Below, one piece after another: positions 491-21,104 of a stretch of 23,046 bases of DNA; the first letter of the stretch is position 1, and each line of letters begins with the position of its first letter. Source of the stretch: a virus; the IMG/VR virus record IMGVR_UViG_3300009149_000298, positions 1 to 23,046 of that record, one strand, 5' to 3'. Position numbers and translations under genes: made by a program. A model generated the notes under the pieces. It was not told where the DNA came from. It was given only the letters and a program-made list of their open reading frames with translations, and ran no database searches.

Positions 491-502
491 TTTAATATAT
501 AA
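491..502 (+). promoter_or_regulatory. Candidate late-type promoter element (TTTAATATATAA) upstream of tail sheath
   Basis: TTTAATATATAA lies 26 bases before the sheath start codon. Similar AT-only elements occur at comparable distances before the tail tube, two other virion-type genes and others in this window. No TTTG/TAnnTTTG promoter is visible here. Promoter function is inferred from recurrence and position only. Confidence 0.4.
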
Positions 503-6866: not shown

Positions 6867-7001
6867 ATGAAGTATTTAAAGAAGTTTAATGAAAAGGAAA
6901 TAACTGGAGAAATTCATAACACACAAATTAAAGAGATTTGTGAGATGATCATACCTGACCAGGTTTCGGTGTTACTCCAACACTCAATCACGAATATCTA
7001 A
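6867..7001 (+). CDS. Short ORF, possibly the 5' part of a frameshifted mini-gene
   Basis: A 44-codon frame starts with MKYLKKFNEKEITGE 15 bases after the tube gene and ends in the less protein-like DQVSVLLQHSITNI. In the -1 frame the DNA from about 6959 to the TAA at 7019-7021 encodes a natural-looking C-terminus, PGFGVTPTLNHEYLNEQILK, ending just before the terminator. A -1 shift near 6957-6965 would join the two into about 50 residues. This could be a decayed gene, a sequencing error or recoding. The MKY..F.E start resembles other genes here (8714-9073, 11636-12109). I do not recognise a function. Confidence 0.4.
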   Translation: MKYLKKFNEKEITGEIHNTQIKEICEMIIPDQVSVLLQHSITNI

Positions 7002-8321: not shown

Positions 8322-8347
8322 ATGGGAGTTAATAACTCCCATTTTTT
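8322..8347 (+). terminator. Bidirectional terminator between convergent genes
   Basis: ATGGGAGTT (8322-8330) and AACTCCCAT (8334-8342) form a 9-bp stem with loop AAT. It is flanked by an A tract on the left and a T tract on the right. The minus-strand gene to the right ends inside the T tract. Confidence 0.85.
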
Positions 8348-8645
8348 ATTTATCCAAAATCACAGAAAACCTTTTATCTCTAAGAATAGGGATAACGATA
8401 TCTAAAAAATTTTCAACATTACATAAAAAAAACCACTTATCATCATCATATTCTATAACTTTGAACAAGGAATCATATTCCTTTACTAATTCAAAATCTA
8501 TACCGATGGTAGTACAAATATCTTTTAATTCCGTGAAACGATCTCTATTAAATTCCAAGTCGGAACTCTTTAGATTTAAAATATTCCCATTGAGAAAATA
8601 ATATTTCTTTTTAATAACTTCATATACTCTTTCTCTCATATCCAT
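8346..8645 (-). CDS. Hypothetical small protein with the shared C-terminal RxKRF motif
   Basis: A 99-aa soluble protein of unknown function on the strand opposite the surrounding virion genes. No catalytic motif, signal peptide or membrane segment is visible. It ends with ILRDKRFSVILDK, a form of the C-terminal motif I-R-E-x-R-[FL]-x-x-[LIF]-[LF] found in five other small proteins of this window. Upstream on the minus strand a TTTG (complement of 8677-8680) lies 19 bases from TATATTAA, a weak match to the host promoter. That would place transcription start almost at the ATG. Confidence 0.7.
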   Translation of the reverse strand: MDMRERVYEVIKKKYYFLNGNILNLKSSDLEFNRDRFTELKDICTTIGIDFELVKEYDSLFKVIEYDDDKWFFLCNVENFLDIVIPILRDKRFSVILDK

Positions 8646-8681
8646 TAAATTAATATAATTAAAAATTACGATTGTGCAAAA

Positions 8682-8702
8682 TTAATATATAACTTATAAA
8701 TA
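8682..8702 (+). promoter_or_regulatory. Candidate late-type promoter element before the gene at 8714
   Basis: TTAATATATAA (8682-8692) is followed by TATAAATA (8695-8702), the exact T4 late-promoter octamer, with the ATG at 8714. In DNA this AT-rich the octamer alone is weak evidence; the position and the shared element add some weight. Confidence 0.35.
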
Positions 8703-8713
8703 ATTTTAAGTGT

Positions 8714-9073
8714 ATGAAATATATAATGTTATTCGAAGATCACTCTAATACCGATACTAACGATTTATGGGTAGTTTTCGCTGGATTGGGGGGTGGATTT
8801 GGTGGAGCTACTGAAATGGGGATATGGAAGGGAAGTAAAGAAGATGCTGAGAGAGAAGCTTACCAAAAATCCATTGAAGAATATGATAGTTACGAAGGGT
8901 CAAATGGTCTGAGAACAATGGAAGAGATAATGGAAGAAGATGATTTAGATGAGGATGATGCTCAAATGACATATAATGATGAGAGAGAGTCTTGGTTAGA
9001 CTACTATGTAGAATTATACGATCCAGAAAAACACGAAACAGATCCAAGCGATCAAAGAAATATTTTAAATTAA
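8714..9073 (+). CDS. Hypothetical acidic protein with MKYxxxFE start
   Basis: A 119-aa protein I cannot assign. The first residues, MKYIMLFED, resemble the starts of other genes here and loosely the T4 capsid-targeting peptide. Next come a glycine-rich segment (FAGLGGGFGGATEMGIWKG) and a strongly acidic C-terminal half (EEIMEEDDLDEDDAQ). The gene is followed after four bases by the gene at 9078, so the two are almost certainly co-transcribed. A virion or internal-protein role is possible but not shown. Confidence 0.7.
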   Translation: MKYIMLFEDHSNTDTNDLWVVFAGLGGGFGGATEMGIWKGSKEDAEREAYQKSIEEYDSYEGSNGLRTMEEIMEEDDLDEDDAQMTYNDERESWLDYYVELYDPEKHETDPSDQRNILN

Positions 9074-9077
9074 ACCT

Positions 9078-9956
9078 ATGCCGCACATACAAAGAACTAA
9101 TGACCAATCACCCAAAGATGGTGACCAATTTACACCAGATGTATTGAAGAAAATGAAAGTTGAAGAACTGGAAAAAGTAAGAATGGAAATGGAAAAAAGA
9201 CTTAAACAAAGAGGTTCTAGTCGTCCAGTCACAACTGGTAATAATTGGTTTGACTCTAAGAAGAACGAGAGAGATTATTTAAATATGGTCAGAGATATTA
9301 TATCTGATAAAATGATGAATGAAGGAAAAATGAATGTTAAATATTTCAATCAATTCATTTTAGAATCAGCAGAAGAGGATTATGACAATGGTACATATAA
9401 AGAACAATTAAGGTCAATGATGGACGCTCTTAAAGAAGTTATAGTATGGATGCAAATTGGTAGAGCTTTCATGAAAAGGATCGAAATTGAAAAGAATTTG
9501 GATAATATGATTAGCCAAATAATGGATGATCTGAAATCTCAAATATCAAGTATAGAGAAGTTAAAAAACGATAGTGATAAGATAGTAAAATCAATTGAAG
9601 AGGGATTCATTAAATACAAAGATGGGATGATAGATAAGGATTTCAAGAAATATCTTAGTTTAGCACTAATACATTCTTTCAATACGATAAAAGAATATAA
9701 AGAAAAAAAGTATAAGGATGAAACTCTATATCCTAATACAAAACCAAATGATTTTGATGAGTCCAATCTAAGTAATAGGGAAGTTAGAGATCTTATCGAT
9801 CAAGCTCTAGATAAAAGAGACTTTGAAGAAGTGAAAAGACTAACCTTTCTACTTAAAGAATCAGTGGATATTGTTGAAGATGATCTAGGTATTGATGTGT
9901 TTAAAAGAATATCAGAAACTTTCATTAGTATTATTATTGATATTTTTAATAAATAA
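9078..9956 (+). CDS. Hypothetical helical protein with UVR-like motif and an internal MNVKYFNQFILES start-like segment
   Basis: A 292-aa, mostly alpha-helical charged protein. The first ~84 residues form a basic region with a coiled-coil-like stretch (EELEKVRMEMEKRLKQRG). From residue 85 the segment MNVKYFNQFILESAEED resembles an N-terminal targeting peptide. Its ATG (9330-9332) is preceded by GAAGGAAAAA, one of the few SD-like stretches here, so a shorter ~208-aa product may also be made. Near residues 236-260 the pattern DQALDKRDFEEVKRLTFLL matches the UVR-type helical hairpin known from UvrB/UvrC, ClpC and McsA. Co-transcribed with the gene at 8714. Function unknown. Confidence 0.7.
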   Translation: MPHIQRTNDQSPKDGDQFTPDVLKKMKVEELEKVRMEMEKRLKQRGSSRPVTTGNNWFDSKKNERDYLNMVRDIISDKMMNEGKMNVKYFNQFILESAEEDYDNGTYKEQLRSMMDALKEVIVWMQIGRAFMKRIEIEKNLDNMISQIMDDLKSQISSIEKLKNDSDKIVKSIEEGFIKYKDGMIDKDFKKYLSLALIHSFNTIKEYKEKKYKDETLYPNTKPNDFDESNLSNREVRDLIDQALDKRDFEEVKRLTFLLKESVDIVEDDLGIDVFKRISETFISIIIDIFNK

Positions 9957-9970
9957 CCAATTTAAATTCT

Positions 9971-9978
9971 TATCTTTG
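9971..9978 (+). promoter_or_regulatory. Host-type -7 box (TATCTTTG) before the nucleotidyltransferase gene
   Basis: TATCTTTG fits TAnnTTTG exactly, 25 bases before the ATG at 10004. A clear TTTG -33 partner is not visible; only a T run lies about 23 bases upstream. Confidence 0.5.
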
Positions 9979-10003
9979 TTTTTAGAAATTAAAAAACATA
10001 AAG

Positions 10004-11011
10004 ATGGGAGGATTATCACTTAAAAATTTACCAGAGGACAAAAAGACTAGAAGATATCATAAAGATGAATACTTTAATCTTTCGGAAGAATTACTCCCGA
10101 AAATTAAAGAAATATTCAACACTGATATTAGTCTAGTAATGTCTTATCATAACAAAGAAACTTTTGGTGATATGGATATTCTTATTCTAAATAAAGGATA
10201 TGATAATATTCCCAAACTAATTCAAGAGTTAGAACCATCAGAAATTAACGGAAATGGTAACGTTTATTCATTTGATTATAAAAATCTACAAATTGACTTA
10301 ATCATGACCGATCCAGAAAACTGGGAAGCATCTAACATCTTCTTTCAATGGGGAGATTTAGGTAACTTAATGGGTAAGTTATTTAATTCATATGGTAATA
10401 TGGATAACTTTATCCTAAAGTATGGATTCGATGGTATGAAAATTAAAATGATTTATAACGGATATAGTAAATACTTATCTTTAACCAAAGACAATAAAAA
10501 AGCTTTTGAATTTTTAGGTCTAGACTTCGAAAGACATAAGGAAGGATTTAATGATCAATTTGAGATGTTTGATTATATCATTGGATCAAAATACTTCTCA
10601 TATGATATCTTCCAATGGGAGAATTTAACTTCTGTTAATAAAAATAGAAATAAAAGAAGACCAGTTTTCATTGAATTTCTCAAATATATTGAGAGTCATA
10701 AAAATATAATTACTTATGACGAGAAAAATGAAATATATTTAGAAAATTTAAGTAGATTTTTTAATATTAATATCAAAGAAGAATACCAAATGTTAGTTGA
10801 TAAGGTTGAATATGATAAATCTATCAGTGATAAATTTGGTGGTAAATATATTATGGAATCATTTAATTTAGAATCTGGTAAGGAATTGGGTAAAATGATG
10901 TTAAATTTTAAAATGGAAATTGAATCTAATAATGGAGATTATAATGATTTTATCAATAATCACTCCCGTGAAGAACTAAAATCCATGTTTAAGAGATTGA
11001 ATAATTTATAA
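10004..11011 (+). CDS. Nucleotidyltransferase of the DNA polymerase X/beta type
   Basis: A 335-aa protein whose first third is a polymerase-X-type palm. The stretch SYHNKETFGDMDILIL (residues 47-62) follows the family signature GSYRRGKETxGDIDIL, with D56 and D58 as metal ligands. The third carboxylate would be D98 in LQIDLI. WEASNIFFQWGDLGN then takes the place of the family segment around the FTGS loop. Unlike true Pol X enzymes, no N-terminal helix-hairpin-helix 8-kDa domain is present. The C-terminal ~170 residues are not recognised. It could be a repair polymerase or a terminal/RNA nucleotidyltransferase; the sequence does not suggest a CCA-adding enzyme. The rnpA gene follows after 13 bases, so both probably share the promoter near 9971. 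Confidence 0.72.
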   Translation: MGGLSLKNLPEDKKTRRYHKDEYFNLSEELLPKIKEIFNTDISLVMSYHNKETFGDMDILILNKGYDNIPKLIQELEPSEINGNGNVYSFDYKNLQIDLIMTDPENWEASNIFFQWGDLGNLMGKLFNSYGNMDNFILKYGFDGMKIKMIYNGYSKYLSLTKDNKKAFEFLGLDFERHKEGFNDQFEMFDYIIGSKYFSYDIFQWENLTSVNKNRNKRRPVFIEFLKYIESHKNIITYDEKNEIYLENLSRFFNINIKEEYQMLVDKVEYDKSISDKFGGKYIMESFNLESGKELGKMMLNFKMEIESNNGDYNDFINNHSREELKSMFKRLNNL

Positions 11012-11024
11012 TAAATAGAAACGA

Positions 11025-11327
11025 ATGAAAAATACGATAAAATCTATAAAAGAAATAGACTCTGTTTTCAGAGGTAAGACTGTTGTTGGCAAATCCGTTT
11101 TGATTAAATATTCAGATAGTGATTCATTAAAATATTTAGTTACAGCTCCAATTAAAACATGGAAGAGAGCGGTTGATAGAAATAGAATCAAGAGACTTAT
11201 GAGGGAATCCATAAGAGGAATAGAGATACCTAAGAATATAGCATTTGTTTATATCGATAAGGAAATCCGATCCTTGGTGGAAATAAAAAAGGATATCGAA
11301 ATTATTTTAAAAAAAATTAAGTATTAA
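11025..11327 (+). CDS. rnpA: Ribonuclease P protein component (phage-borne RnpA)
   Basis: RnpA is the protein cofactor of RNase P, which binds the catalytic RNA and removes 5' leaders from pre-tRNAs. The 100-aa protein carries the hallmark RNR motif: KRAVDRNRIKRLMRESIR at residues 47-64, with R52, N53, R54, K56, R57 and R60 as expected RNA contacts. The N-terminal part (IKEIDSVFRGKTVVGKSVLI) matches the first helix and strand of the family. The KRAVDRNRIKRL form is close to Bacteroidota RnpA, which suggests capture from a host. It is slightly short for the family (about 110-130 aa). Expressed behind the nucleotidyltransferase gene and closed by an 18-bp palindromic terminator. No RNase P RNA gene is seen in the window, so it presumably pairs with host or distant phage RNA. 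Confidence 0.88.
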   Translation: MKNTIKSIKEIDSVFRGKTVVGKSVLIKYSDSDSLKYLVTAPIKTWKRAVDRNRIKRLMRESIRGIEIPKNIAFVYIDKEIRSLVEIKKDIEIILKKIKY

Positions 11328-11334
11328 TATAATA

Positions 11335-11372
11335 AATAAACCCCTTTATAATAGATTATAAAGGGGTTTATT
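11335..11372 (+). terminator. Bidirectional terminator after rnpA (18-bp perfect palindrome)
   Basis: The arms 11335-11352 and 11355-11372 are perfectly complementary around a two-base centre. The core is CCCCTTTATAA / TTATAAAGGGG, with TTTATT after it. It separates rnpA from the convergent minus-strand gene at 11378. Confidence 0.88.
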
Positions 11373-11377
11373 GATAT

Positions 11378-11626
11378 TTAAATATCCATCTTTAATTGAG
11401 TTCCACTTTTAGGAGGAGTCGTTTTCGGATCTATAACTACCTTAGCCATTTCCTCAGAAAGTGATATCAAATAATTTTGAACATCAGTACCTTCTTCGAT
11501 ATCGTAACCAAGTGAATTCAATAAATCATTCACTTTGAAATAGATCTTGTCAGATAGATCTATATAACTATCATGTATCTTGTTCTCATCAATAGCATAT
11601 TGAGTAAATTTCTTAATACCACTCAT
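11378..11626 (-). CDS. Hypothetical small protein
   Basis: An 82-aa protein of unknown function. The start MSGIKKFTQYAIDENK loosely resembles the short N-terminal FxxF/YxxE signature of nearby genes. The body looks helical (DLSDKIYFKVNDLLNSLGY). The C-terminus is polar and proline-containing (DPKTTPPKSGTQLK). It starts nine bases after the stop of the gene at 11636-12109 and is therefore the second gene of a two-gene minus-strand unit. That unit ends at the bidirectional terminator. Confidence 0.7.
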   Translation of the reverse strand: MSGIKKFTQYAIDENKIHDSYIDLSDKIYFKVNDLLNSLGYDIEEGTDVQNYLISLSEEMAKVVIDPKTTPPKSGTQLKMDI

Positions 11627-11635
11627 AAAGACAAT

Positions 11636-12109
11636 TTATTTCTTTTTAGATTTAACACCTTTAGTGTTTTTCTCAGCAGATTTCTTTAACTCACTTCTTT
11701 TCGATACTTTATCAGCGTTCATCTCTTTAGATTTAGCCTCAAGATCTTTTTTAATTTCTTTAGCTTCATCAGAAGTTAAATCAACATAAAAATGAGGTAC
11801 AAGTTCATTACCATATAAATAATCTTTAACCTTAATAGATTTAAGTTTAAATTCTTTATCGTTCTGTAAAACATTAATAGCTGAATCTACATTATCTGAT
11901 GTGAAACCAGCATCTTTAAGGTATTTCTTAATAGAAGATAATGGATAGATACCTTTAACATCTGGATAACTTTTAGAATAATCATTATAGTGTTTATCAG
12001 ATGGTTTTCCTCTATCTGATATCTTAGGCTTTTTCTTAAGCATTTTCTTCAATTCGGCAACACAATCATCTTTCTTAGATTCAGTGATGAATTCAGTATA
12101 TTTTAACAT
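11636..12109 (-). CDS. Lysine-rich protein with T4 capsid-targeting-like N-terminus; candidate internal (capsid) protein
   Basis: A 157-aa, very basic protein. The N-terminus MLKYTEFITESKKDD closely resembles the ten-residue capsid targeting peptide of T4 internal protein III (MKTYQEFIAE, known). That peptide is cut after the Glu by the prohead protease; the equivalent cut here would follow E10 in FITE. The remainder is Lys/Asp/Ser rich, with a middle segment (YPLSSIKKYLKDAGF) that looks folded and a basic tail ending in TKGVKSKKK, fitting a DNA-associated internal protein. It has its own upstream AT-only promoter-like element on the minus strand. The internal-protein role is inference. Confidence 0.7.
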   Translation of the reverse strand: MLKYTEFITESKKDDCVAELKKMLKKKPKISDRGKPSDKHYNDYSKSYPDVKGIYPLSSIKKYLKDAGFTSDNVDSAINVLQNDKEFKLKSIKVKDYLYGNELVPHFYVDLTSDEAKEIKKDLEAKSKEMNADKVSKRSELKKSAEKNTKGVKSKKK

Positions 12110-12139
12110 AATTATAAAAATATTTTTTATTTCTTTTAG

Positions 12140-12150
12140 TATATATAAAA
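12140..12150 (-). promoter_or_regulatory. Candidate late-type promoter element, minus strand
   Basis: On the minus strand TTTTATATATA lies 30 bases before the ATG at 12109. It is back to back with a plus-strand copy at 12172-12183, so the 93-base gap holds two divergent elements. Confidence 0.4.
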
Positions 12151-12171
12151 CTTTTACTACGGAAATATAAC

Positions 12172-12183
12172 TTTTAATATATA
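12172..12183 (+). promoter_or_regulatory. Candidate late-type promoter element, plus strand
   Basis: TTTTAATATATA lies 19 bases before the ATG at 12203, inside the palindrome TTAATATATATTAA. It is the same element type as before sheath and tube. Confidence 0.4.
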
Positions 12184-12202
12184 TTAAAAATAAACTTATT
12201 CT

Positions 12203-12955
12203 ATGTTATCTAACTTACTAAAGGGTCTTTTCAACAGAAAATCATTAACAGAGCTTAATTTGAAAAAATTACCATCTCAAGGTCTTTTTTATTCTGATGA
12301 ATTCAAGATCTCAATAAAGAAAGCTGATGTAGATGGTATAATCTATTATAAACACAATTATAAGGACGACCCACTAAGTGTTATATGGTTGATAAAAAAG
12401 ATAGTAAAGAATAATATACACTTAACTAAAGGATATAAGTTCGAGGATATATCATCCATTGATATAGTCTTTATATTTTTAGAAATCGTAAAATTAACAA
12501 CTAATAATGATATAATTATGATCCATACAGATGATGTCGTAACATTTGATTCCGACCACTTTAATTATTTTAATATAGATAAAGATCTTATGGATAAATA
12601 TGATAGAGATAAAAAGGAGTTTGTTATTGATGATTTCAGATTTAAATTACCGACAATTGGAGTTGAAGGATCAGTAACTAAATTTATAACTGAGAGTGCT
12701 TCATTAGGAACATTATCAGAATTTAGTGATAAGTCATACGATTTCATGTATTTTCTTGGTGATAGAACAGATCTATCATATGACGATATTGTTAATCTAA
12801 TAACAATATTCAATGATGAATTGGGTGATAAAGAGATGGAAACTATATCGAATATAATGGAGAATTTTTCACCATTCAATAAATATACTTTGAAGAGTGA
12901 TAGTGGTAGAATACTAGATGTCGGGAAACTTGACCTTTCTAAGATTTGGGATTAA
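12203..12955 (+). CDS. Baseplate-hub-like protein (T4 gp26-type family)
   Basis: A 250-aa protein with the characteristic opening KLPSQGLFYSDEFKISIKKA (about residues 21-40). This LPSxGxFY...IxIKKA pattern belongs to the T4-type baseplate gp26 family. The rest is consistent with that family: an alternating helix/strand pattern, then FKLPTIGVEGSVTKFI and a helical C-terminal half. It is distantly related in its opening to the protein at 7128-8102 but lacks the cysteines. The last 17 bases overlap the end of the convergent gene on the other strand, so no terminator separates them. Probably a baseplate hub or hub-assembly component; the exact T4 counterpart is not certain. Confidence 0.65.
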   Translation: MLSNLLKGLFNRKSLTELNLKKLPSQGLFYSDEFKISIKKADVDGIIYYKHNYKDDPLSVIWLIKKIVKNNIHLTKGYKFEDISSIDIVFIFLEIVKLTTNNDIIMIHTDDVVTFDSDHFNYFNIDKDLMDKYDRDKKEFVIDDFRFKLPTIGVEGSVTKFITESASLGTLSEFSDKSYDFMYFLGDRTDLSYDDIVNLITIFNDELGDKEMETISNIMENFSPFNKYTLKSDSGRILDVGKLDLSKIWD

Positions 12956-13313
12956 ATGATGTTGGGAAATAGTTTTTTAATTTATTTGTCTCACCAAACA
13001 ACGTTTTAAACCTTTCCTCCCTTTCCTGTCTGATATAAAAATCTCTAATATCTTCATAATCATCATAGTATCCATCAGGTCTACAGAATTCACATAAACA
13101 ATGACGAGAAGATCTATAAGTGAAATCACAAATTTCATCTTCCACATATCTTATCGAAGAGTATCTTAATTTATATGATACATTTCCTTTATTTACATAT
13201 TGATAAACACTCAAAATATAATCACAATTAATATGTTCTTTCATTTGATTTAAGAACCATCTATCAAGATCCCTAATTAAAATCTCTTTCTTATTTCTAT
13301 TATCTCTTTTCAT
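12939..13313 (-). CDS. Hypothetical protein with CxCxxC cluster and RxERF motif
   Basis: A 124-aa protein of unknown function, third and last gene of the minus-strand unit that begins with the RNA ligase. It is basic at the N-terminus (MKRDNRNKKEIL) and has a cysteine cluster CLCEFC at about residues 70-75. With the nearby His or the earlier Cys this could hold a zinc ion. An acidic tyrosine-rich stretch follows (DGYYDDYEDIRDFY). The motif REERFKTLF (about residues 99-107) is a form of the C-terminal motif shared by six small proteins here, but a ~17-residue tail follows it. Its start overlaps the upstream gene by 14 bases and its end overlaps the convergent baseplate-like gene. Confidence 0.7.
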   Translation of the reverse strand: MKRDNRNKKEILIRDLDRWFLNQMKEHINCDYILSVYQYVNKGNVSYKLRYSSIRYVEDEICDFTYRSSRHCLCEFCRPDGYYDDYEDIRDFYIRQEREERFKTLFGETNKLKNYFPTSFNPKS

Positions 13314-13641
13314 CTAAAAAATTTGATAGTCTTTTTTCCCTAATTAAGATCAATAATTCGGTATTAACAAAGTTATATAATTCCACAAAATGAGAAGACC
13401 AACTATTTTTAAATTCGATATGTGGAACACTAAATGGGAATATCAGTATGGTTTTATAACCCAAATTGAATCTTATTATTTCCAAATTATCGATATCGTT
13501 ACGAATGGAAATATTGTTATCATCTATAAATACAGAACTAGAAATATTAACAGAACTTAAATATTCTGATATTATACCAACTCCAATATTTACAACCCTA
13601 TCAAATTCACTATCATTAAATTTAACTCTTCTCATATTCAA
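13300..13641 (-). CDS. Hypothetical protein with C-terminal REKRL motif
   Basis: A 113-aa protein of unknown function, middle gene of the RNA-ligase unit. It follows the ligase gene by six bases and overlaps the next start by 14. The body is beta-rich and hydrophobic in parts (KTILIFPFSVPHIEF) without a clear membrane helix. The C-terminus ILIREKRLSNFLDEKR carries the recurrent motif I-R-E-x-R-[FL]-x-x-[LIF]-[LF]. Tight coupling suggests it is made together with the ligase. Confidence 0.7.
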   Translation of the reverse strand: MNMRRVKFNDSEFDRVVNIGVGIISEYLSSVNISSSVFIDDNNISIRNDIDNLEIIRFNLGYKTILIFPFSVPHIEFKNSWSSHFVELYNFVNTELLILIREKRLSNFLDEKR

Positions 13642-13647
13642 ATAAAA

Positions 13648-14277
13648 TCATATCATATCTTCACTAACAGCGTTTTCACCAAACTCCCCTCTCAACCTAT
13701 CAATCCAATCATTTGTCTTTATTTTGGATATCCAAACGATATCATTACCCTTTGTTTTACGAACACCTTTAGCCATAACACCTTCCTTTAATCCATAGAC
13801 ATTATCTTTAACATTATTGATAAAATTAACATCAAGAATCCCTTTATATACTAAATCTGGAATGTGTAAATGTGAGAAATTTGATACAAAATCTTTGGGA
13901 GATATGAACCCCTTTTGGAATTGAACTATGTCAAATATAACAACATCCATCTCATCATTCTCATCATGTAATCCAGCAAATGAGTTTTCACCTAAATATT
14001 CCCCGAAAACAGTAAATGTTCTAGAATTTTTATATATCTTCTCAGTTCTGAAAATTTTATCTAACTCATCACCATATTTATCTAGAAAAATCGGTATAGA
14101 CTTACCGAACTGAGAATGATTTTCATCTATCATAGTTTTCCTAGTTCCAAATTTATACCAACCCCTCTTAGGGGACCACTCAAATCTTATATTACTACCA
14201 TCTAACTTATCAAAGGCATAAATATTCTCACCCAAAATGGATTCTGTCCAATAATTTAATTTAGGGTATTGTTTCAT
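13648..14277 (-). CDS. Minimal RNA ligase (Rnl2-like nucleotidyltransferase domain)
   Basis: Probably an ATP-dependent RNA ligase that seals RNA nicks, for example tRNAs cut by host defence nucleases. All nucleotidyltransferase motifs are visible: motif I KLDGSN with K24 as AMP-accepting lysine, motif III VFGEYLGE, motif IV EGVMAKG, and motif V WISKIKT. At 209 aa it is close to the bare catalytic domain. T4 Rnl2 has 334 aa with a C-terminal domain for nick recognition (known), which seems absent here. A DNA ligase is less likely because no OB-fold domain follows. First gene of a three-gene minus-strand unit with a host-type promoter (14285-14315), divergent from the NusG unit. Confidence 0.82.
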   Translation of the reverse strand: MKQYPKLNYWTESILGENIYAFDKLDGSNIRFEWSPKRGWYKFGTRKTMIDENHSQFGKSIPIFLDKYGDELDKIFRTEKIYKNSRTFTVFGEYLGENSFAGLHDENDEMDVVIFDIVQFQKGFISPKDFVSNFSHLHIPDLVYKGILDVNFINNVKDNVYGLKEGVMAKGVRKTKGNDIVWISKIKTNDWIDRLRGEFGENAVSEDMI

Positions 14278-14284
14278 AATAATT

Positions 14285-14315
14285 CTAATTTACTAATATT
14301 ATAGAGACATCCAAA
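14285..14315 (-). promoter_or_regulatory. Host-type promoter for the RNA ligase unit
   Basis: On the minus strand TTTG (complement of 14312-14315) is followed after 19 bases by TAAATTAG (complement of 14285-14292). It has one mismatch to TAnnTTTG and ideal spacing. Confidence 0.6.
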
Positions 14316-14319
14316 AATT

Positions 14320-14350
14320 TTTGAGATATGATTTTAAATTATTATATTTG
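14320..14350 (+). promoter_or_regulatory. Host-type promoter for the 14383-15720 unit
   Basis: TTTG (14320-14323), 19 bases, then TATATTTG (14343-14350): a perfect Bacteroidota sigma-A match, 32 bases before the ATG at 14383. Its -33 box and that of the divergent ligase promoter are the two ends of the palindrome CAAAAATTTTTG (14312-14323). Confidence 0.75.
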
Positions 14351-14382
14351 TAGAAAGTATAATTAAAAATCAAATTGAATTA

Positions 14383-14736
14383 ATGATAGAAAACGGGTTA
14401 AATATTAAAGGTTTCGTGAAATATAAAGGAGATTTCAATATAGAAAATTTTTACGATTCCAACAGATTTAAAAACACTAGAGTAGATAGAGAATTCCTTA
14501 CTAAATTAATAAATATTCACATAGGATATGTTAAAGAGGAATCAAAAAACCCATTTGATGGAATCTTAAAAGTCCCTGTATTATATAGATTTGAGGTTAG
14601 AAAATACATAAATGGGAATTTAAGGTATTTTAAAAATACAGCATTTGTTAAGAATGGAGTTTTTGAATGGAAGATTTTATCTAGACAGACTAAAACTTAT
14701 AACGAAAAGTATGATATACTCATGAGTAATCCATAA
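14383..14736 (+). CDS. Hypothetical protein, first gene of the NusG unit
   Basis: A 117-aa protein I do not recognise. It looks alpha/beta with several basic and aromatic residues, for example YRFEVRKYINGNLRYFKN (about residues 69-86). No signal peptide, membrane helix or catalytic motif is seen. It follows a very good host-type promoter and precedes the clamp-loader-like gene by eight bases, so it is expressed together with the replication and transcription genes of this unit. Confidence 0.7.
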   Translation: MIENGLNIKGFVKYKGDFNIENFYDSNRFKNTRVDREFLTKLINIHIGYVKEESKNPFDGILKVPVLYRFEVRKYINGNLRYFKNTAFVKNGVFEWKILSRQTKTYNEKYDILMSNP

Positions 14737-14744
14737 TATTATAT

Positions 14745-15164
14745 ATGAGTAATCTAAAAGAAGTTATCAATTGTTTAATTAAAGATAGATCTAACTATCG
14801 TAAATTATCTCTAAAGGATAAAGAAGATAACTTTTTCATAATAAATAGATTATTGTCAAAAAAATATACCATATTCGCTAATAAATTAAACCTAAAGAAC
14901 ATAGATAAATCATTAGCTCTAGACGTATGGTTTATATTTTTAGGAGGTGAGATAAAGAATGGTAACATAGATTTTAGGTTTTGGAAATGGTTTTGGTCAA
15001 AGAGTCCAAAAGAAAAGATAGACAACAATTTATCAGAAAAAGATAATAAGTATCTTATTGAAAGATTAGATATAGATCAAGAGGATTTAAATTTCTTACT
15101 AAAATTTTATGAGGAAGATGTAATGGATGAAATGAAATATTTTAAAAAACTAGATAAACAATAG
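14745..15164 (+). CDS. Possible clamp-loader small subunit (gp62-like)
   Basis: A 139-aa helical protein. The opening pattern FFIINRLLSKKYTIFANKLN, then IDKSLALDVWFIFL and RFWKWFWSK, resembles small clamp-loader subunits (gp62 type) of T4-like phages. In those, an INRxLS motif, an ANxLN stretch and a basic aromatic FxKW segment occur in the same order. In T4, gp62 works with the ATPase gp44 to load the sliding clamp on DNA (known). The C-terminus is helical and acidic (DIDQEDLNFLLKFYEED). gp44 and the clamp are not in this window. The assignment rests on pattern resemblance only. Confidence 0.45.
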   Translation: MSNLKEVINCLIKDRSNYRKLSLKDKEDNFFIINRLLSKKYTIFANKLNLKNIDKSLALDVWFIFLGGEIKNGNIDFRFWKWFWSKSPKEKIDNNLSEKDNKYLIERLDIDQEDLNFLLKFYEEDVMDEMKYFKKLDKQ

Positions 15165-15171
15165 TAGTAAT

Positions 15172-15720
15172 ATGATAAAAGAGAAAAACACCAAATGGTA
15201 TGCTATCAGAACAGTAGCTGGAAAAGAAAAAGTAGCTAAAGAAAATGTCGAAAGAGAAATAAACGACAACAATATCGATAAATGGGTCGGTCAAGTAGTC
15301 CTACCAACTGAGAAATTATACAAACTAAGAAATGGTAAGAAATTTTCCCGAGATAAATTAGTTTTCCCTGGTTATATATTTATGGAATTAGAATTAATAG
15401 GTGAAGTAGAGAGAATAATCAAAAATACCAAGAACGTTATTGGATTCACTGGAGATAGAAACAATAAACCAATCGCTTTAAAACAATCCGAGATCGAGAG
15501 AATAATTGGTAATATGGAAAAAGTGGAAAGTGGAGACACAGAAATCCCATTTATAGCTGGAGAGCAGATTACAGTTATCGATGGACCATTCAATAACTTT
15601 ACAGGTGAAGTTGTTAGCATAGATCATGATAAGAAAACATTGGAAGTTATAGTTAAAATATTCGGTAGAGAAACCCCTTTAAAACTATCTTATTTACAAG
15701 TAGATAAATATAGAGATTAG
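15172..15720 (+). CDS. nusG: NusG-like transcription elongation factor (phage-borne)
   Basis: A 182-aa full-length NusG (E. coli NusG 181 aa, known). The N-terminal NGN domain starts with KWYAIRTVAGKEKVAKENVE and contains the RNA-polymerase-contacting region around VLPTEKLYKLRNGKK and VFPGYIFMELEL. The KOW domain is clear at the C-terminus (GEQITVIDGPFNNFTGEVV), and the ending VKIFGRETPLKLSYLQV is very like Bacteroidota NusG. NusG binds RNA polymerase and controls pausing, termination and coupling. A phage copy could prevent termination in phage operons or compete with host NusG. It ends the 14383-15720 unit, seven bases after the preceding gene, and is followed by a strong terminator. Confidence 0.9.
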   Translation: MIKEKNTKWYAIRTVAGKEKVAKENVEREINDNNIDKWVGQVVLPTEKLYKLRNGKKFSRDKLVFPGYIFMELELIGEVERIIKNTKNVIGFTGDRNNKPIALKQSEIERIIGNMEKVESGDTEIPFIAGEQITVIDGPFNNFTGEVVSIDHDKKTLEVIVKIFGRETPLKLSYLQVDKYRD

Positions 15721-15744
15721 TCGTTATTAATTAACGAAATTAAT

Positions 15745-15780
15745 AAAACCCCCCTTAATATAAAACCAAGGGGGGTTTTT
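15745..15780 (+). terminator. Intrinsic terminator after nusG
   Basis: AAAACCCCCCTT (15745-15756) pairs with AAGGGGGGTTTT (15768-15779) across an 11-base loop, with further T after it. It holds the most GC-rich run in the window. A smaller hairpin, TCGTTA-TTAAT-TAACGA (15721-15737), directly follows the nusG stop. Confidence 0.9.
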
Positions 15781-15873
15781 TATTTCCATAAATTAATTAA
15801 TTAATGATCCAAATAATTAAACAAAAGACGATATATTAAATACATATTTTAGAGATAAAAAATAAAAGTCTAC

Positions 15874-17793
15874 ATGAAATTATTTGATAAAATTAAAAAA
15901 AATCACACCGACTTGGAAGATGAAATGTCTATCCAAGATTATCTAGAGTTGTGTAAAAAAGATCCTAAAGCATATGCTTCACCAGCTGAAAGAATGTTAG
16001 AAGCTATTGGTGATCCACAATTCGTTGATACCAAAACAGATGATAGATTAAACAGAATCTTCTTTGGTAAAACAATAAAAATGTACCCAGCTTTCTCAGA
16101 ATTCTATGGTATGGAGGAAACTATAGATCAAATCGTTAGTTTCTTCAAACACGCCGCACAAGGGTTAGAGGAAAAGAAACAAGTATTATACCTATTAGGT
16201 CCAGTTGGTGGTGGTAAATCTTCATTGGCTGAGAGGATCAAATCTTTGATGGAACAAAGTCATGTTTATGTCTTGAAATGTGGTGGTGAATTATCACCAG
16301 TATTCGAATCACCATTAACTCTATTTTCAGAATATAAATCGGAATTAGAAGAAGAGTATGGTATCGCTAAAAGATACATTCCAGCTTGTATGAGTCCATG
16401 GGCGATTAAGAGATTAGATGAATTAGGTGGTGATATAAATAAGTTCAAGGTAGTTAAAGTAAAACTGAATATACAAAAACAAATTGGTATCTCTAAAACT
16501 GAACCTGGTGATGAAAATAACCAAGATATATCAACTCTAGTTGGTAAGGTTGATATTAGTAAATTAGCTGAATATTCACAGGATGACGCGGATGCGTATT
16601 CTTATAGTGGATCTCTTTGTAAAGCTAATCAAGGTATAATGGAGTTTGTGGAGATGTTTAAAGCTCCTATAAAAGTATTACACCCATTACTAACCGCTAC
16701 TCAAGAGGGCAATTATAATGGAACTGAATCCATATCATCAGTTCCATTTAATGGAATTATACTAGCCCATTCAAATGAATCAGAATGGGAAACATTCTCG
16801 AATGATAATAAGAATGAAGCTTTCCTTGATCGTATTTATGTAGTAAGAGTTCCTTATTCATTAAGAATTAATGAAGAAGTTAGTATATATGATAAACTTC
16901 TTAAAAGTTCTTCTTTATCGGAAGCTCCATGTGCTCCACAAACATTAGAGATGTTATCTAAGTTTAGCATTCTAACAAGAATTGCTCCAACAGAACATTC
17001 TAACAATTTTTCTAAAATGAGAATATATAATGGTGAAGATCTTAAAGACGTAGATCCCAAAGCTAAGTCAATACAAGAATATAAAGATATAGCTGGAGTA
17101 ACCGAAGGAATGTCGGGAATATCTACTAGATTCGCTTTCAAAGTCTTATCTAAGGTATTTAACTATGATTCTAGAGAGGTTGCTGCTAATCCAGTACATC
17201 TTCTATATGTTTTAGAAAAAGAGATTATTAAACAACAGTTTAATAAAGAGAAAGAGGAAGAGTATTTGAATATAATTAAAGATCTATCTACTAAATACGC
17301 TGAATTTATCTCAGAAGAAATTCAAAAAGCATACGTTGATTCCTATGATGAATATGGTCAAAATATTTTTGATAGATATGTTCTTTACGCTGACCATTGG
17401 ATTCAAGATTTGGATTATAGAGATCCAGACACTGGAGAGCAGTTTGATAAGAAGATCTTAGACGAAGAATTATCAAAAATTGAGAAACCTGCTGGGATAG
17501 CTAATCCCAAAGATTTCAGAAATGATATAGTCCAATTCTATTTAAGATCTAAATCACATGATGGAGTAGCACCAAAATGGAATGAATATGCTAAAATGAG
17601 ATCGGTTATAGAAAAGAGATTATTCTCTAAAACCGAGGAACTATTACCTATAATTTCCTTCTCATCTAAATCTAAGGAAGATGAAGAGAAACATAAGAAA
17701 TTTGTTGATAGAATGTCCGAAAGGGGATATACTGAATTACAAATAAGACTACTAGTAGAATGGTATCTTAGAGTGAGAAAAAGAGAAGTATAA
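15874..17793 (+). CDS. prkA: PrkA-family serine protein kinase / AAA+ protein (YeaG-like)
   Basis: Full-length PrkA (639 aa; E. coli YeaG 644 aa, known). The N-terminal AAA+ domain is clear: RIFFGKTIKMYPAF, then EFYGMEETIDQIVSFFKHAA, and the Walker A loop GPVGGGKSS at residues 109-117 with K115. SPVFESPLTLF follows. Later family segments include ILAHSNESEWETF and YVVRVPYSLRINEEV. The C-terminal third corresponds to the PrkA kinase-like domain and ends in a basic helix (LLVEWYLRVRKREV). In bacteria prkA forms a stress/stationary-phase system with yeaH (DUF444) and often spoVR. Here the DUF444 gene lies downstream, but spoVR is not in the window. Role in phage infection unknown. A terminator follows. 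Confidence 0.92.
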   Translation: MKLFDKIKKNHTDLEDEMSIQDYLELCKKDPKAYASPAERMLEAIGDPQFVDTKTDDRLNRIFFGKTIKMYPAFSEFYGMEETIDQIVSFFKHAAQGLEEKKQVLYLLGPVGGGKSSLAERIKSLMEQSHVYVLKCGGELSPVFESPLTLFSEYKSELEEEYGIAKRYIPACMSPWAIKRLDELGGDINKFKVVKVKLNIQKQIGISKTEPGDENNQDISTLVGKVDISKLAEYSQDDADAYSYSGSLCKANQGIMEFVEMFKAPIKVLHPLLTATQEGNYNGTESISSVPFNGIILAHSNESEWETFSNDNKNEAFLDRIYVVRVPYSLRINEEVSIYDKLLKSSSLSEAPCAPQTLEMLSKFSILTRIAPTEHSNNFSKMRIYNGEDLKDVDPKAKSIQEYKDIAGVTEGMSGISTRFAFKVLSKVFNYDSREVAANPVHLLYVLEKEIIKQQFNKEKEEEYLNIIKDLSTKYAEFISEEIQKAYVDSYDEYGQNIFDRYVLYADHWIQDLDYRDPDTGEQFDKKILDEELSKIEKPAGIANPKDFRNDIVQFYLRSKSHDGVAPKWNEYAKMRSVIEKRLFSKTEELLPIISFSSKSKEDEEKHKKFVDRMSERGYTELQIRLLVEWYLRVRKREV

Positions 17794-17804
17794 TTCTTTA
17801 TAAG

Positions 17805-17840
17805 ATGGTGGATCAAAATATTTGTTCCACCATTTTTTTT
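17805..17840 (+). terminator. Intrinsic terminator after prkA
   Basis: ATGGTGGATCAAA (17805-17817) pairs with TTTGTTCCACCAT (17821-17833) with one mismatch around loop ATA. Seven T follow. Confidence 0.85.
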
Positions 17841-17885
17841 ATATATAGTGTATATAAAGAAAGTAATCTATTTTATTGTAAATCA

Positions 17886-17902
17886 AAAGTGGAAGCCACT
17901 TT
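17886..17902 (-). terminator. Small hairpin downstream of the minus-strand gene at 17964
   Basis: AAAGTGG (17886-17892) and CCACTTT (17896-17902) form a 7-bp perfect stem with a three-base loop. Read on the minus strand it is followed by TGATTT, so it may be a weak terminator for the minus-strand gene. The distance of ~60 bases from that stop is long but acceptable. Confidence 0.4.
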
Positions 17903-17963
17903 CTTATGTGATGAATACCTTTTAATAAATTATTACAACGTTGATTTCCAAAGGTTGAAGAAT

Positions 17964-18326
17964 TTAATCTTTAAATAACTTCTTGAATCTCTTTTCTCGG
18001 ATAATTATTTTAGATTCAGATACCATTTCTTGAGTGATATTTCTACTAGATCCTAAAATACCAGTATAAGACTTGGATTTTTCTTCAAGATAATCGAAGT
18101 TCCAATATGATATATGACCACCATATATTTTATAAATGGGATCATCTACAAATGATTTAACTTTACTACCATAAACTATCATGTAACATGGATGATCTTC
18201 ACTTAACTCGATAACATCTAATACTTTATCGTAAGTATAATTCCACCCAGTTTTATCTAATTTCCGTTCATCATCTGTGAGTTTTCTATATTTAGTTACA
18301 ATTACCAACATGATGTAAATATACAT
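17964..18326 (-). CDS. Hypothetical protein with C-terminal IREKRFKKLF motif, lying between prkA and yeaH
   Basis: A 120-aa protein of unknown function, transcribed against its neighbours. A second start, ATG at 18309-18311 (MLVIVTKYRKLTDDE), removes five residues and seems equally or more likely given the promoter. TAACTTTG on the minus strand (complement of 18343-18350) fits the host -7 box. The body is beta/alpha mixed with aromatic residues (YGGHISYWNFDYLEE). The last residues IIIREKRFKKLFKD are the clearest example of the C-terminal motif shared by six small proteins. The position splits the usual prkA-yeaH pair, which suggests later insertion. Confidence 0.7.
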   Translation of the reverse strand: MYIYIMLVIVTKYRKLTDDERKLDKTGWNYTYDKVLDVIELSEDHPCYMIVYGSKVKSFVDDPIYKIYGGHISYWNFDYLEEKSKSYTGILGSSRNITQEMVSESKIIIREKRFKKLFKD

Positions 18327-18342
18327 ATAATAATAATTATCA

Positions 18343-18350
18343 CAAAGTTA
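18343..18350 (-). promoter_or_regulatory. Host-type -7 box (TAACTTTG) for the gene at 17964-18326
   Basis: TAACTTTG on the minus strand matches TAnnTTTG. No TTTG -33 box is found at 19 bases. It sits 16-32 bases before the two possible start codons. Confidence 0.45.
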
Positions 18351-18407
18351 TTTATAAACAGATGTGAATATTTTAGATATAAAGATTAGAAAAATGTGTC
18401 TAAATAT

Positions 18408-19667
18408 ATGAGTAATAGAAGAATTGTAGATAGAAGAACTAGTCCATCAAAAAAGTCTTTACCAAATAAACAAAGATTTGTTAAAAGAGTTGAGGATCAG
18501 ATAAAAAAAGCTATACCTGATGTCGTTGATTCAACTGGGATAAAAGATTTTGTTAAAGGTAATGGTAAGGTTAAGATTCCTATAAAAGGAATCAAAGAAC
18601 CACAATTCCAATACGATAATAAAACTGGTGATAAGAAATATATCCACCCAGGTAACAAGGAATTCACAGAGGGTGATAAAATTAAAAAGCCTCAAGATGG
18701 TCAGGGAGAGGGAAGTGGTAAAAAGGGTAGTAAAGATGATAGTCCAAGTGAAGACGAATTCACCATTTCCATATCGAAAGAAGAGTTCATGGATTACTTC
18801 TTTAAAGATCTCGAATTACCAGATATGATAAAAAGGGAACTTCAAAATATGACCGAGTTTAAATATAAAAGGGCTGGGTATAGCTCCGAGGGAATTCCAT
18901 CTAGATTAAATGTAATAAACTCATATAAACAAAGTTTGGCTCGTAGATTAACTATGAAGGCTCTATATGATAGGAAGATTAAAGAACTTGAAGAAGAACT
19001 ACTAAGAATAGTTGATGAATCAGAAAGATCTATTATCTTAGAAAAGATAGAGAAATATAAAAACCTAGCATTGTTAGTTCCGTATATGAATGATGTTGAT
19101 TTGAGATATAATAATTTTGAAGCTAAACCAATTCCTACTGTAAGTGCTGTTATGTTCTGTATTATGGATGTGTCGGGATCAATGGGTGTAAATGAAAAGG
19201 ATATAGCTAAGAGGTTTTTTATATTATTATATTTGTTTCTGAATAAGAATTATGAAAACATTGATATAGTCTATATTAGACATACTACAACCTCCAAAGA
19301 GGTAGATGAGAAAGAATTCTTTGAAAGTAGGGAGAGTGGTGGAACTATGGTATCACCATCATTAAAACTAATGGATGATATATTAAACGAGAGATATTCA
19401 AAAGGTTGGAATATATACGCTTGTCAAATATCCGATGGAGATGTTTGGGATAAACAAGACGCTGATGATTGTTATAAGATACTATCAAATACTATTCTTA
19501 GTAAGTTACAGTATATGATATATGTTGAAGTTCTTAGAGATGGTAGGGGAGATCTATTTAAAAATTATACCTCTTTAAGTAAAGAGAAAAAGAATTTTGT
19601 AGTTTCTCAAATAAGTGATGTTAAGAACATTTGGACAGTATTTGTAGATTTATTCAAAGTCACTTAA
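18408..19667 (+). CDS. YeaH/YhbH-family VWA protein (DUF444), partner of PrkA
   Basis: A 419-aa DUF444 protein read from the ATG at 18408, giving MSNRRIVDRRTSPSKKSLPN as expected for the family; a GTG at 18396 would add four residues. The N-terminus is a basic region with the family's RQRF-like KQRFVKRVEDQIKKA. A disordered Gly/Lys/Ser/Asp linker follows (about residues 85-125). The von Willebrand A domain then carries the metal site DVSGSMG (about residue 253), IRHTTTSKEVDEKEFF, ESGGTMVSPSLKLM and the late ISDGDVWDKQDADDC. These match E. coli YeaH (427 aa, known) segment by segment. In bacteria it works with PrkA; the partner gene lies just upstream. TTTTAGATATAAA (18371-18383) before the start may be a promoter element. 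Confidence 0.9.
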   Translation: MSNRRIVDRRTSPSKKSLPNKQRFVKRVEDQIKKAIPDVVDSTGIKDFVKGNGKVKIPIKGIKEPQFQYDNKTGDKKYIHPGNKEFTEGDKIKKPQDGQGEGSGKKGSKDDSPSEDEFTISISKEEFMDYFFKDLELPDMIKRELQNMTEFKYKRAGYSSEGIPSRLNVINSYKQSLARRLTMKALYDRKIKELEEELLRIVDESERSIILEKIEKYKNLALLVPYMNDVDLRYNNFEAKPIPTVSAVMFCIMDVSGSMGVNEKDIAKRFFILLYLFLNKNYENIDIVYIRHTTTSKEVDEKEFFESRESGGTMVSPSLKLMDDILNERYSKGWNIYACQISDGDVWDKQDADDCYKILSNTILSKLQYMIYVEVLRDGRGDLFKNYTSLSKEKKNFVVSQISDVKNIWTVFVDLFKVT

Positions 19668-19724
19668 ACATTTTTAATTTTTTTTAATAGTATTAATATT
19701 AATTTAAATTAATTTAAATAAAAT

Positions 19725-20072
19725 ATGAGAAAAATTCTATACTTATTGATAATACCTTTCTTATTGTCAAATCAATCATGTACAAAAGATTGTTTAAATT
19801 CTGATATTGCATATGTAAATGTTGATGTTTTTAATGGTTGGGGGAATGTCGTGGATTTCATATTCACTTACGATTCATGTAATGAATGTGTGAATAATTT
19901 CACCATTGTCAATAATACACAATACCAATTATCGTATAACTTCAATATATATCAAAATGGTATATTAGTATATACAGGATATTTCATAGTATCACCATAT
20001 GGATCAGTGTATTTCAATAATGCCTTTAATAATTGTTCTATGAATCCATATACCGAAGTAACAATATATTGA
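19725..20072 (+). CDS. Small secreted lipoprotein
   Basis: A 115-aa protein starting with a classic lipoprotein signal: MRKILYLLIIPFLLSNQSC, a short basic start, a hydrophobic core and a Ser-Cys lipobox, which is frequent in Bacteroidota. The lipidated cysteine would be C19, followed by TKDC. The mature part has further cysteines (C19-TKD-C23, C52 and C55 in DSCNECV, and one in NNCSMN) and looks like a small Asn/Tyr-rich beta sandwich (QYQLSYNFNIYQNGILVYTGYF). No family is recognised. Phage lipoproteins are known to change the infected cell surface and block superinfection (for example T5 Llp); that role is only a hypothesis here. It may be monocistronic, ending at the hairpin at 20087-20118. 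Confidence 0.75.
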   Translation: MRKILYLLIIPFLLSNQSCTKDCLNSDIAYVNVDVFNGWGNVVDFIFTYDSCNECVNNFTIVNNTQYQLSYNFNIYQNGILVYTGYFIVSPYGSVYFNNAFNNCSMNPYTEVTIY

Positions 20073-20086
20073 TATGTATGGGAGGG

Positions 20087-20118
20087 ATTTGATTTGAATA
20101 TATAATTTCAAATCAAAT
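20087..20118 (+). terminator. 12-bp perfect hairpin after the lipoprotein gene
   Basis: ATTTGATTTGAA (20087-20098) and TTCAAATCAAAT (20107-20118) are perfect inverted repeats around TATATAAT. No strong T tract follows on the plus strand, so it may be a weak terminator or an RNA structure before the next gene. A protein-binding operator is also possible. Confidence 0.45.
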
Positions 20119-20130
20119 TTATTTAAATAA

Positions 20131-20415
20131 TTGGACCCATATAAGAAAAAAGTAAAAGAAGAAATAATGGATCGATTATCATGTCTTGATAACTTCGATG
20201 AATTAAATAAAATTCTTATATCATTAGTTAATGAAGGTATGATATCTAAATTCTATATCTCAAAATCTATACTAAATGAAAATCTAGTTAAGTCTGTTAC
20301 TATAACATCTGATTTAGATTTCGATTACGTAATCTCATTTGAAAATATAAAGTCAGATTATAGGGAACACAGATTAAATAAAATTTTACTCAAAAAATAT
20401 AATAATAAAATATGA
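20131..20415 (+). CDS. Hypothetical protein with C-terminal REHRL motif
   Basis: A 94-aa protein of unknown function. The frame opens with a TTG directly after an in-frame stop; the first ATG (20167) would give an 82-aa protein, MDRLSCLDNFDELNKIL. The N-terminus is helical and basic and the middle is beta-rich (KSVTITSDLDFDYVISFENI). Near the end, DYREHRLNKILLKKYNNKI carries a variant of the recurring C-terminal motif. The stop overlaps the next start as ATGA, so the two genes are translationally coupled. Confidence 0.65.
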   Translation: MDPYKKKVKEEIMDRLSCLDNFDELNKILISLVNEGMISKFYISKSILNENLVKSVTITSDLDFDYVISFENIKSDYREHRLNKILLKKYNNKI

Positions 20416-20678
20416 ATATGAAATCAATGAAAGAGGATACTATCCAAAAGTTTATCTTGGATATAGATTTCAACTCTGACTGGAGTGTAGATATGATAAA
20501 AGAAGGAATTAGAAGAATGACTGGTGAATCTCCTGGTATTAAAGTTAATTACGTAAAAGATGTCCTAATAAATGAGATAAAGGGAGAAGCTACTGAATTC
20601 AAGAAATTAAATTCTATTGAAATTGTATTCACTGACTTAGATGATCAAATAAAAAGGGTTGAATATATTGTAAATTAA
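20412..20678 (+). CDS. Hypothetical small protein coupled to the gene upstream
   Basis: An 88-aa protein of unknown function. Its ATG overlaps the upstream TGA (ATGA), a coupling arrangement that often indicates partners. Sequence features are a helical N-terminus (MKSMKEDTIQKFILDIDF), a middle segment MIKEGIRRMTGESPG, and a beta-rich C-terminus ending in KRVEYIVN. The overall strand/helix layout resembles the body of the upstream gene product, but no clear homology can be stated. Confidence 0.65.
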   Translation: MNMKSMKEDTIQKFILDIDFNSDWSVDMIKEGIRRMTGESPGIKVNYVKDVLINEIKGEATEFKKLNSIEIVFTDLDDQIKRVEYIVN

Positions 20679-20697
20679 TCATATTTATAAACAAGTT

Positions 20698-20716
20698 ATT
20701 GTATTATAAATACAAT
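20698..20716 (+). other. Hairpin just upstream of the start codon at 20721
   Basis: ATTGTATT (20698-20705) and AATACAAT (20709-20716) are perfect inverted repeats with loop ATA, ending four bases before the ATG. In RNA this could limit ribosome access. Confidence 0.4.
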
Positions 20717-20720
20717 TTAC

Positions 20721-21104
20721 ATGACGTTGTTTTTTAAAAATAGATACCGAATAGATATTAGTGATATATCAACAGAATGGATAGACACGTTGATGGGATC
20801 ACTACCAATTAGTGTAGTGAATATAAACCTATATAGAAATAACTTCTTCTATAATAAGAAGTTATTATCGGTAAAAATAGAATTAAGTAGTAATCACAAA
20901 TTACCATTCCCACAACCCTCATTCAGAACATTTGATAAATGTCCTATTATGGAATATATAGATCACCCTAAATTATATGAGAATAATATAGATCGATATG
21001 TGAAAATAATTTCTAATAATATTAGTAGTTTTAACATATCTGATAATTTTTCTTATAAATCTTATATAAGGGAACAACGTTTTAAAAAATTATTAGATAA
21101 TTAA
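20721..21104 (+). CDS. Hypothetical protein with C-terminal IREQRFKKLL motif
   Basis: A 127-aa protein of unknown function. It is rich in Tyr, Phe and Asn, beta-rich in the first half (VVNINLYRNNFFYNKKLLSV), with a proline segment KLPFPQPSFRTFDK in the middle. The last residues SYIREQRFKKLLDN are nearly the same as the end of the gene at 17964-18326 (IIIREKRFKKLFKD), although the rest of the two proteins is unlike. Its stop shares one base with the start of the exonuclease gene (TAATG), so they are coupled. Confidence 0.7.
   Translation: MTLFFKNRYRIDISDISTEWIDTLMGSLPISVVNINLYRNNFFYNKKLLSVKIELSSNHKLPFPQPSFRTFDKCPIMEYIDHPKLYENNIDRYVKIISNNISSFNISDNFSYKSYIREQRFKKLLDN

Follow-up and report, generated by a model that had tools for sequence, protein, structure and literature searches.

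Six small proteins encoded in a 23,046-nucleotide stretch of viral DNA (IMG/VR record IMGVR_UViG_3300009149_000298, positions 1 to 23,046; the whole 23-kb record is referred to as the window) end with or near a shared nine-residue peptide, here called the tag. As judged from comparison with related genomes, the tag is real, limited to one clade of huge phages, kept at the level of the peptide, under selection, carried by accessory genes outside the late class, and separate from the capsid-targeting signal of the same phages. It is rather probable that the tag acts as a short linear docking or sorting signal that brings non-late accessory proteins to one common partner. No description of such a tag system was found in the open-access literature searched.

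The tail sheath and other genes of the window are closest to those of LR745206, LR756502 and LR756504, which are complete huge-phage genomes of 634-642 kb. More distant sheath relatives were found in a 735-kb phage, LR756500, the Prevotella Lak phages, Flavobacterium phage MaF61 and Tenacibaculum phages, so that the host of the clade is probably a member of the Bacteroidota. Gene calls on the relatives were our own and are approximate. Tags were scored with a fitted profile, thresholded at a 5% false discovery rate for per-genome fractions, and with an unfitted fixed pattern, R[DEN]x[KR][IL]xx[IL][LIFG]. The threshold lets through a few percent of false calls, including window genes 22106-22501 and 9078-9956.

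Across the three complete relatives, the tag has the consensus R-x-x-[K/R]-[I/L/F]-x-x-[I/L]-[L/G] (approximately) and mostly lies 0-7 residues before the stop. Tagged proteins at the 5% threshold numbered 196 of 922 in LR745206, 184 of 926 in LR756502 and 173 of 882 in LR756504; the fitted profile gave 171, 161 and 148, respectively, where 2-3 were expected from internal windows. The tagged set of the preliminary description, made from the window alone, was thus correct in its six members and far too small in extent, the true figure being about 170-200 proteins per genome with a minority of copies internal. Terminal matches to the fixed pattern numbered 92 in LR745206 and 91 in LR756502 (0.8 expected from internal positions in each). 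Five further viral contigs, none used for choice of the pattern, were tagged on 17% (G006), 17% (G013), 15% (G012), 8% (G002) and 5% (G001) of proteins, with terminal fixed-pattern matches of 30 vs 0.2 expected (G006), 22 vs 0.1 (G013) and 15 vs 0.1 (G002). A motif finder run without prior on last-25-residue segments returned ‘.RD.KLnkIL’ from LR756502, a near-twin from LR745206 and ‘e.Rk.kIe.L’ from LR756504, and did not recover the tag motif from internal segments. The tag is therefore far rarer internally than at protein ends, in keeping with its original description as a C-terminal motif. Some of the minority of internal copies are conserved between orthologues. A tag-like sequence is also present within a DEAD_2-type helicase (DinG/XPD group) and is kept in both genomes that carry it (LR745206 235077-236744 and LR756502 256301-257968).

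Outside the clade the fixed pattern gave no match in the 735-kb phage (778 genes), LR756511 (710), LR756500 (268), Lak-A1 (233) or the two cultured phages MaF61 (153) and PTm1 (147), several of these tag-free outgroup genomes being sampled in part, nor in 1366 genes of YeaG-bearing contigs that are presumed mostly bacterial.

The preliminary description had taken the peptide, rather than a DNA repeat, to be the conserved entity, pointing to differing codons. The codon string is indeed different in each of the six window copies, and synonymous codon choice within the tag closely follows that of the genome, with Arg, Leu and Ile codons close to background. A nucleic-acid element read as a peptide, such as a ribosome-binding or terminator signal, might have been suspected from LR756502, in which Gly codons at +8 favour GGA/GGG and possibly serve as ribosome-binding sites of downstream genes. 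Tags are, however, found on 18-25% of small genes facing a convergent neighbour, as often as on neighbours of one strand separated by more than 30 nt, so the tag does not serve the following gene as a ribosome-binding site. Chance matching was assessed with randomly truncated proteomes, which gave 0-3 tag matches, and with 5000 shuffled window proteomes, which gave a mean of 0.0008 terminal matches (maximum 1); the window itself has 5 terminal matches and 1 other to R[DE]xR[FL]xx[LIF][LF], a pattern chosen post hoc and confirmed by the independent genomes. The codon, convergent-gene and control tests together refute a nucleic-acid element or chance, the probability of which we regard as negligible.

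The bodies of tagged proteins are dissimilar, as had been noted for the six. No tagged body relative was present in the same genome for 167 of 171 tagged LR745206 proteins and for 151 of 161 in LR756502; in LR756504, about one third have a tagged body paralogue. The latter would fit the remnant of a single diversified paralogous family, a reading the preliminary description had offered as an alternative. Profile-profile comparison of 33 tagged families with HHalign revealed no common fold (no pair above 95% probability and one above 80%; none among untagged families), and lengths range from 41 to 731 residues. Descent from one family is therefore exceedingly unlikely and that alternative is not supported. 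Selection on the tag was apparent when LR745206 was compared with LR756502: among reciprocal best hits, a tagged protein has a tagged partner in 42 of 49 cases and an untagged protein in 2 of 184, and most of the seven exceptions still bear a degenerate tag. Over 48 tagged pairs, the initial Arg is identical in 100% and positions +4 and +8 in 71-74%, with 44% sequence identity between the bodies. Two families (A5 and A6), followed in up to seven genomes, keep the tag at body identities of 23-51%. Viral-contig scans for two other conserved tagged families found no locus for A4 and two loci only for A3.

Tagged proteins are mostly small (median 97-108 residues) and accessory: only 4 of the 183 genes common to the three complete relatives are tagged. 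Tagged genes cluster near record ends; at 620-640 kb of LR756502 they account for 76% of the genes. Almost all genes of the 20-kb block at 622-642 kb of that genome are tagged, which suggests one regulated accessory region. Few functions (riboflavin kinase, DUF6011, BtpA-like, AAA) emerged when 70 larger tagged proteins were annotated; matches to a CCA enzyme and WG repeats in LR756504 are weak tag calls and were not relied on. A tagged riboflavin kinase of LR756502 extends about 86 residues past its enzyme domain and closes with ..ELRNIKIRKIIE. Tagged proteins did not stand out from others in body charge, membrane segments or CxxC content. Structure predictions, for which alignment rows came from viral contigs only, yielded one good model with a terminal helix, in which confidence drops at the tip, that is, at the tag; a second model, low in confidence, was set aside. 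Foldseek comparison of the tagged model with the PDB and viral structures gave no match at E≤0.001.

The tag is missing from the terminase, portal, capsid, ribonucleotide reductase and thymidylate synthase homologues examined, and likewise from those of DNA polymerase, clamp, ligase, primase/primase-helicase and nuclease. The latter group bears on the sliding clamp, which had been named as a potential partner. The spacing [D/E/N]-x-x-[I/L/F]-x-x-[I/L]-[L/F] does resemble that of clamp-binding peptides such as PIP boxes, yet none of the polymerase, ligase, primase-helicase and nuclease homologues carries the tag at its end, and about 180 unrelated clamp clients are implausible. The clamp is accordingly disfavoured, and a PIP-like motif is very unlikely.

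Expression class was read from promoters. The element TTAATATATA stands before sheath and tube genes and, by analogy to T4-like phages, is taken as a putative late promoter. It was found upstream of 5-7% of tagged genes (about 4% expected at random) vs 14-37% of other genes. Exact copies in the window numbered 5 (at 492, 6200, 8682, 12174 (+) and 12187 (-)) vs 1.45 expected, and none was found upstream of a window tagged gene. Three of them serve as a contrast class: 492..501 (+) is upstream of the tail sheath gene; 8682..8691 (+) is upstream of 8714-9073, which has the N-terminal capsid-targeting-like motif MKYIMLFEDH; and 12178..12187 (-) is upstream of 11636-12109, which has the N-terminal motif MLKYTEFITES. 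Those two genes, together with 6867-7001, are the window carriers of an N-terminal motif (MK[Y/H]LKxFNE / MIxKYxxFIxE) that was found on 82, 74 and 48 proteins of LR745206, LR756502 and LR756504, respectively, against 9 expected. TTAATATATA stands upstream of 50-64% of the N-motif genes counted. Occurrence of the N-terminal motif and the tag on the same protein was rarer than expected (Fisher P 0.0002, 0.0004 and 0.04).

The N-terminal motif appears to match the capsid-targeting sequence of phage T4, since its pattern, applied to 30 T4 genes, picks only ipII and ipIII and agrees with the published sequence (PMC3012670). The T4 internal proteins are diverse defence proteins with only the capsid-targeting sequence in common (PMC3012670), and they provide a precedent for the tag as a virion packaging signal by which proteins would be loaded into the head and injected; virion targeting had also been raised in the preliminary description. 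Against this stand the lack of the late promoter before tagged genes and the separate T4-like signal, which rarely coincides with the tag; virion targeting is thus disfavoured and we consider it highly improbable. These phages instead appear to use two addresses, a virion signal on late proteins and a different one on non-late accessory proteins. A host-type promoter, TTTG-N-TAnnTTTG, shows clear enrichment ahead of tagged genes in LR745206 alone, and for this reason tagged genes are described as probably not late rather than as early, the latter being less certain.

Residues of the tag vary in concert within each genome. In LR745206 and LR756502 the form is R-[D/E/N]-x-K-[I/L], and the R[DEN]x[KR].. 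variant occurs in 92 and 91 copies, respectively, vs 4 in LR756504; the LR756504 variant, RKx[KRI]IxxL[LIN], occurs in 41 copies there and 0-1 in each other genome. The window variant, known from its six copies only, is R-E-x-R-[F/L], with Phe at +4 and Arg at +3 prevailing, both rare in its relatives. Because unrelated proteins of one genome share that genome's variant, the shift would be best explained by one co-evolving partner. From these patterns we infer a docking mode of action and a single, phage-encoded partner; encoding by the phage seems most likely in view of the restriction of the signal to the clade and the concerted change of its residues in each genome.

In the mechanism envisaged, the signal R-[D/E/N; K in LR756504]-x-[K/R]-[I/L/F]-x-x-[I/L]-[L/F/G] would normally form the last helical turns of a protein, and is borne by roughly 5-20% of genes in the clade, mostly encoding small (about 100 residues), unrelated, fast-turning-over accessory proteins outside the late programme. 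One common partner, presumably phage-encoded, would bind the tag helix and gather tagged proteins at one place or complex. A docking helix fits the Arg, the hydrophobic residues at +4, +7 and +8, the predicted terminal helix, the tolerance of position and the genome-wide co-variation, and the tag resembles docking motifs in being short, conserved as peptide, position-tolerant and present on unrelated proteins. Some internal copies are conserved, so a chain end is not needed. A docking tag for one partner, among the possibilities first listed, is thus the best reading of the tag. Some observations weigh against it. A search for receptors by presence and absence narrowed 35 candidates to 23 proteins conserved in the clade and missing from the tag-free genomes as sampled, which included most of the 735-kb relative, with no obvious binder among them; the host-type promoter is rarer before tagged genes than before other genes in LR756504 and at chance level in the window; and the marked bias of the tag towards the last 0-7 residues would also fit a degradation signal.

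Such a signal is the main rival: a timed degron, read by a phage protease of the Clp type (ClpP plus a ClpA-like unfoldase or an adaptor), that would clear accessory proteins at late onset. The mostly terminal tag, the transient type of gene that carries it and its absence from core and late proteins would all suit this, as would the common nonpolar ends (..IL, ..LGI). LR745206, LR756502 and LR756504 each encode a ClpA/ClpC-size AAA+ protein and two full-length ClpP homologues (LR745206 75197 and 123568; LR756502 58622 and 112104; LR756504 291828 and 370879). In each genome one ClpP gene is directly followed by a tagged gene. Bacterial C-terminal degrons of the ssrA and MuA type are likewise short tails serving one machine, but are read at the chain end, whereas the tag is followed by 0-8 residues, with no fixed distance from the free carboxyl end, and has conserved internal copies, which argues that the carboxyl end is not read. 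Parts of this set also occur in tag-free relatives: the 735-kb phage has an AAA+ protein, Lak has ClpP and AAA+, and LR756500 has ClpP. G002, G006 and G013 are tagged with no ClpP detected, but these contigs are fragments. On balance we judge a degron unlikely, though worth serious consideration. Anchoring to a membrane by an amphipathic helix was also considered, as the window variant REKRFKKLFKD resembles a basic amphipathic tail. Helical moments of the tag (0.88-1.09) are similar to those of random 10-mers (0.94-0.98), aromatics are few and net charge is low outside the window, and membrane binding does not need a near-invariant Arg; this explanation is most improbable.

The docking signal proposed here has several known counterparts. 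The capsid-targeting sequence of T4 IPI-IPIII is, like the tag, a short peptide on otherwise unrelated, fast-evolving small phage proteins, with one reader, as is presumed for the tag; it differs in being N-terminal and in directing proteins into the prohead core, the tag being C-terminal and on genes without a late promoter, in phages that own a separate signal of the T4 kind. Encapsulin and bacterial microcompartment cargo peptides are short terminal helices or peptides that recruit unrelated cargo. The tag is similarly short, terminal and on unrelated proteins, but no shell is known for it, its sequence differs and far more cargo genes carry it. Clamp-binding motifs (PIP box, T4 gp45 clients) have similar hydrophobic spacing and are often C-terminal; in these phages the tag is missing from those clamp clients of known type that were examined.

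All six window peptides were confirmed, in frame, at the places originally described, and PHROGs and Pfam searches of the six proteins, whose functions are unassigned, returned no credible family. Four are encoded on the minus strand. The 99-residue protein at 8346..8645, with no blastp homologue in the three complete relatives, carries RDKRFSVIL (8355..8381) 2 residues before its stop. That at 12939..13313 (124 residues), the 3' end of which overlaps the convergent gene 12203-12955, carries a sub-terminal REERFKTLF (12996..13022), 18 residues before the stop; the 113-residue protein at 13300..13641 carries REKRLSNFL (13315..13341), 4 residues before; and the 120-residue protein at 17964..18326 carries REKRFKKLF (17973..17999), 2 residues before. 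On the plus strand, 20131..20415 (94 residues) carries REHRLNKIL (20362..20388), 8 residues before the stop, and 20721..21104 (127 residues) carries REQRFKKLL (21069..21095), 2 residues before. Five copies accordingly lie near protein ends (2-8 residues from the stop), and that of 12939-13313 is sub-terminal. No relatives of the 17964..18326 and 20721..21104 proteins were confirmed in viral-contig scans.

Other window genes include an RNA ligase (13648-14277), a NusG-like transcription factor (15172-15720) and a phage-encoded ribonuclease P protein (11025-11327; PF00825, 9e-11), relatives of which occur in two of the huge phages. The 131-residue protein at 22106-22501 has a terminal UVR (UvrB/UvrC) motif, a type that also occurs in Clp adaptors, with a tag-like RDxI that is out of register. 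A PrkA/YeaG serine kinase and YeaH (DUF444) pair (15874-17793 and 18396-19667) is also present in all three complete relatives, and shows 61-72% identity over most of its length to counterparts on many other contigs, viral and apparently bacterial. YeaG/YeaH genes at the end of the otherwise lambda-like record MN688132.1 (Enterobacter phage LAU1; 1-3308) are host DNA or an assembly chimera.

Huge phages consist largely of small genes without an explained role, and a tag on 15-20% of these splits them into functional classes from sequence alone; the N-terminal motif would in turn allow internal head proteins to be predicted for these phages. The findings suggest at least two protein destinations. 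One tentative possibility is two-address sorting, in which late proteins, about 5-9% of the total, would be sent into the virion by the N-terminal label, and about one fifth (accessory, non-late) to a hub or compartment by the C-terminal label, so that newly acquired genes could be enrolled by evolving a nine-residue tail. The receptor of the tag would be a single handle on up to about 200 unexplained proteins per phage and a tractable target, and the tag may be usable as a recruitment peptide. The tag also illustrates a way for a phage to draw new genes of unrelated origin into a single process.

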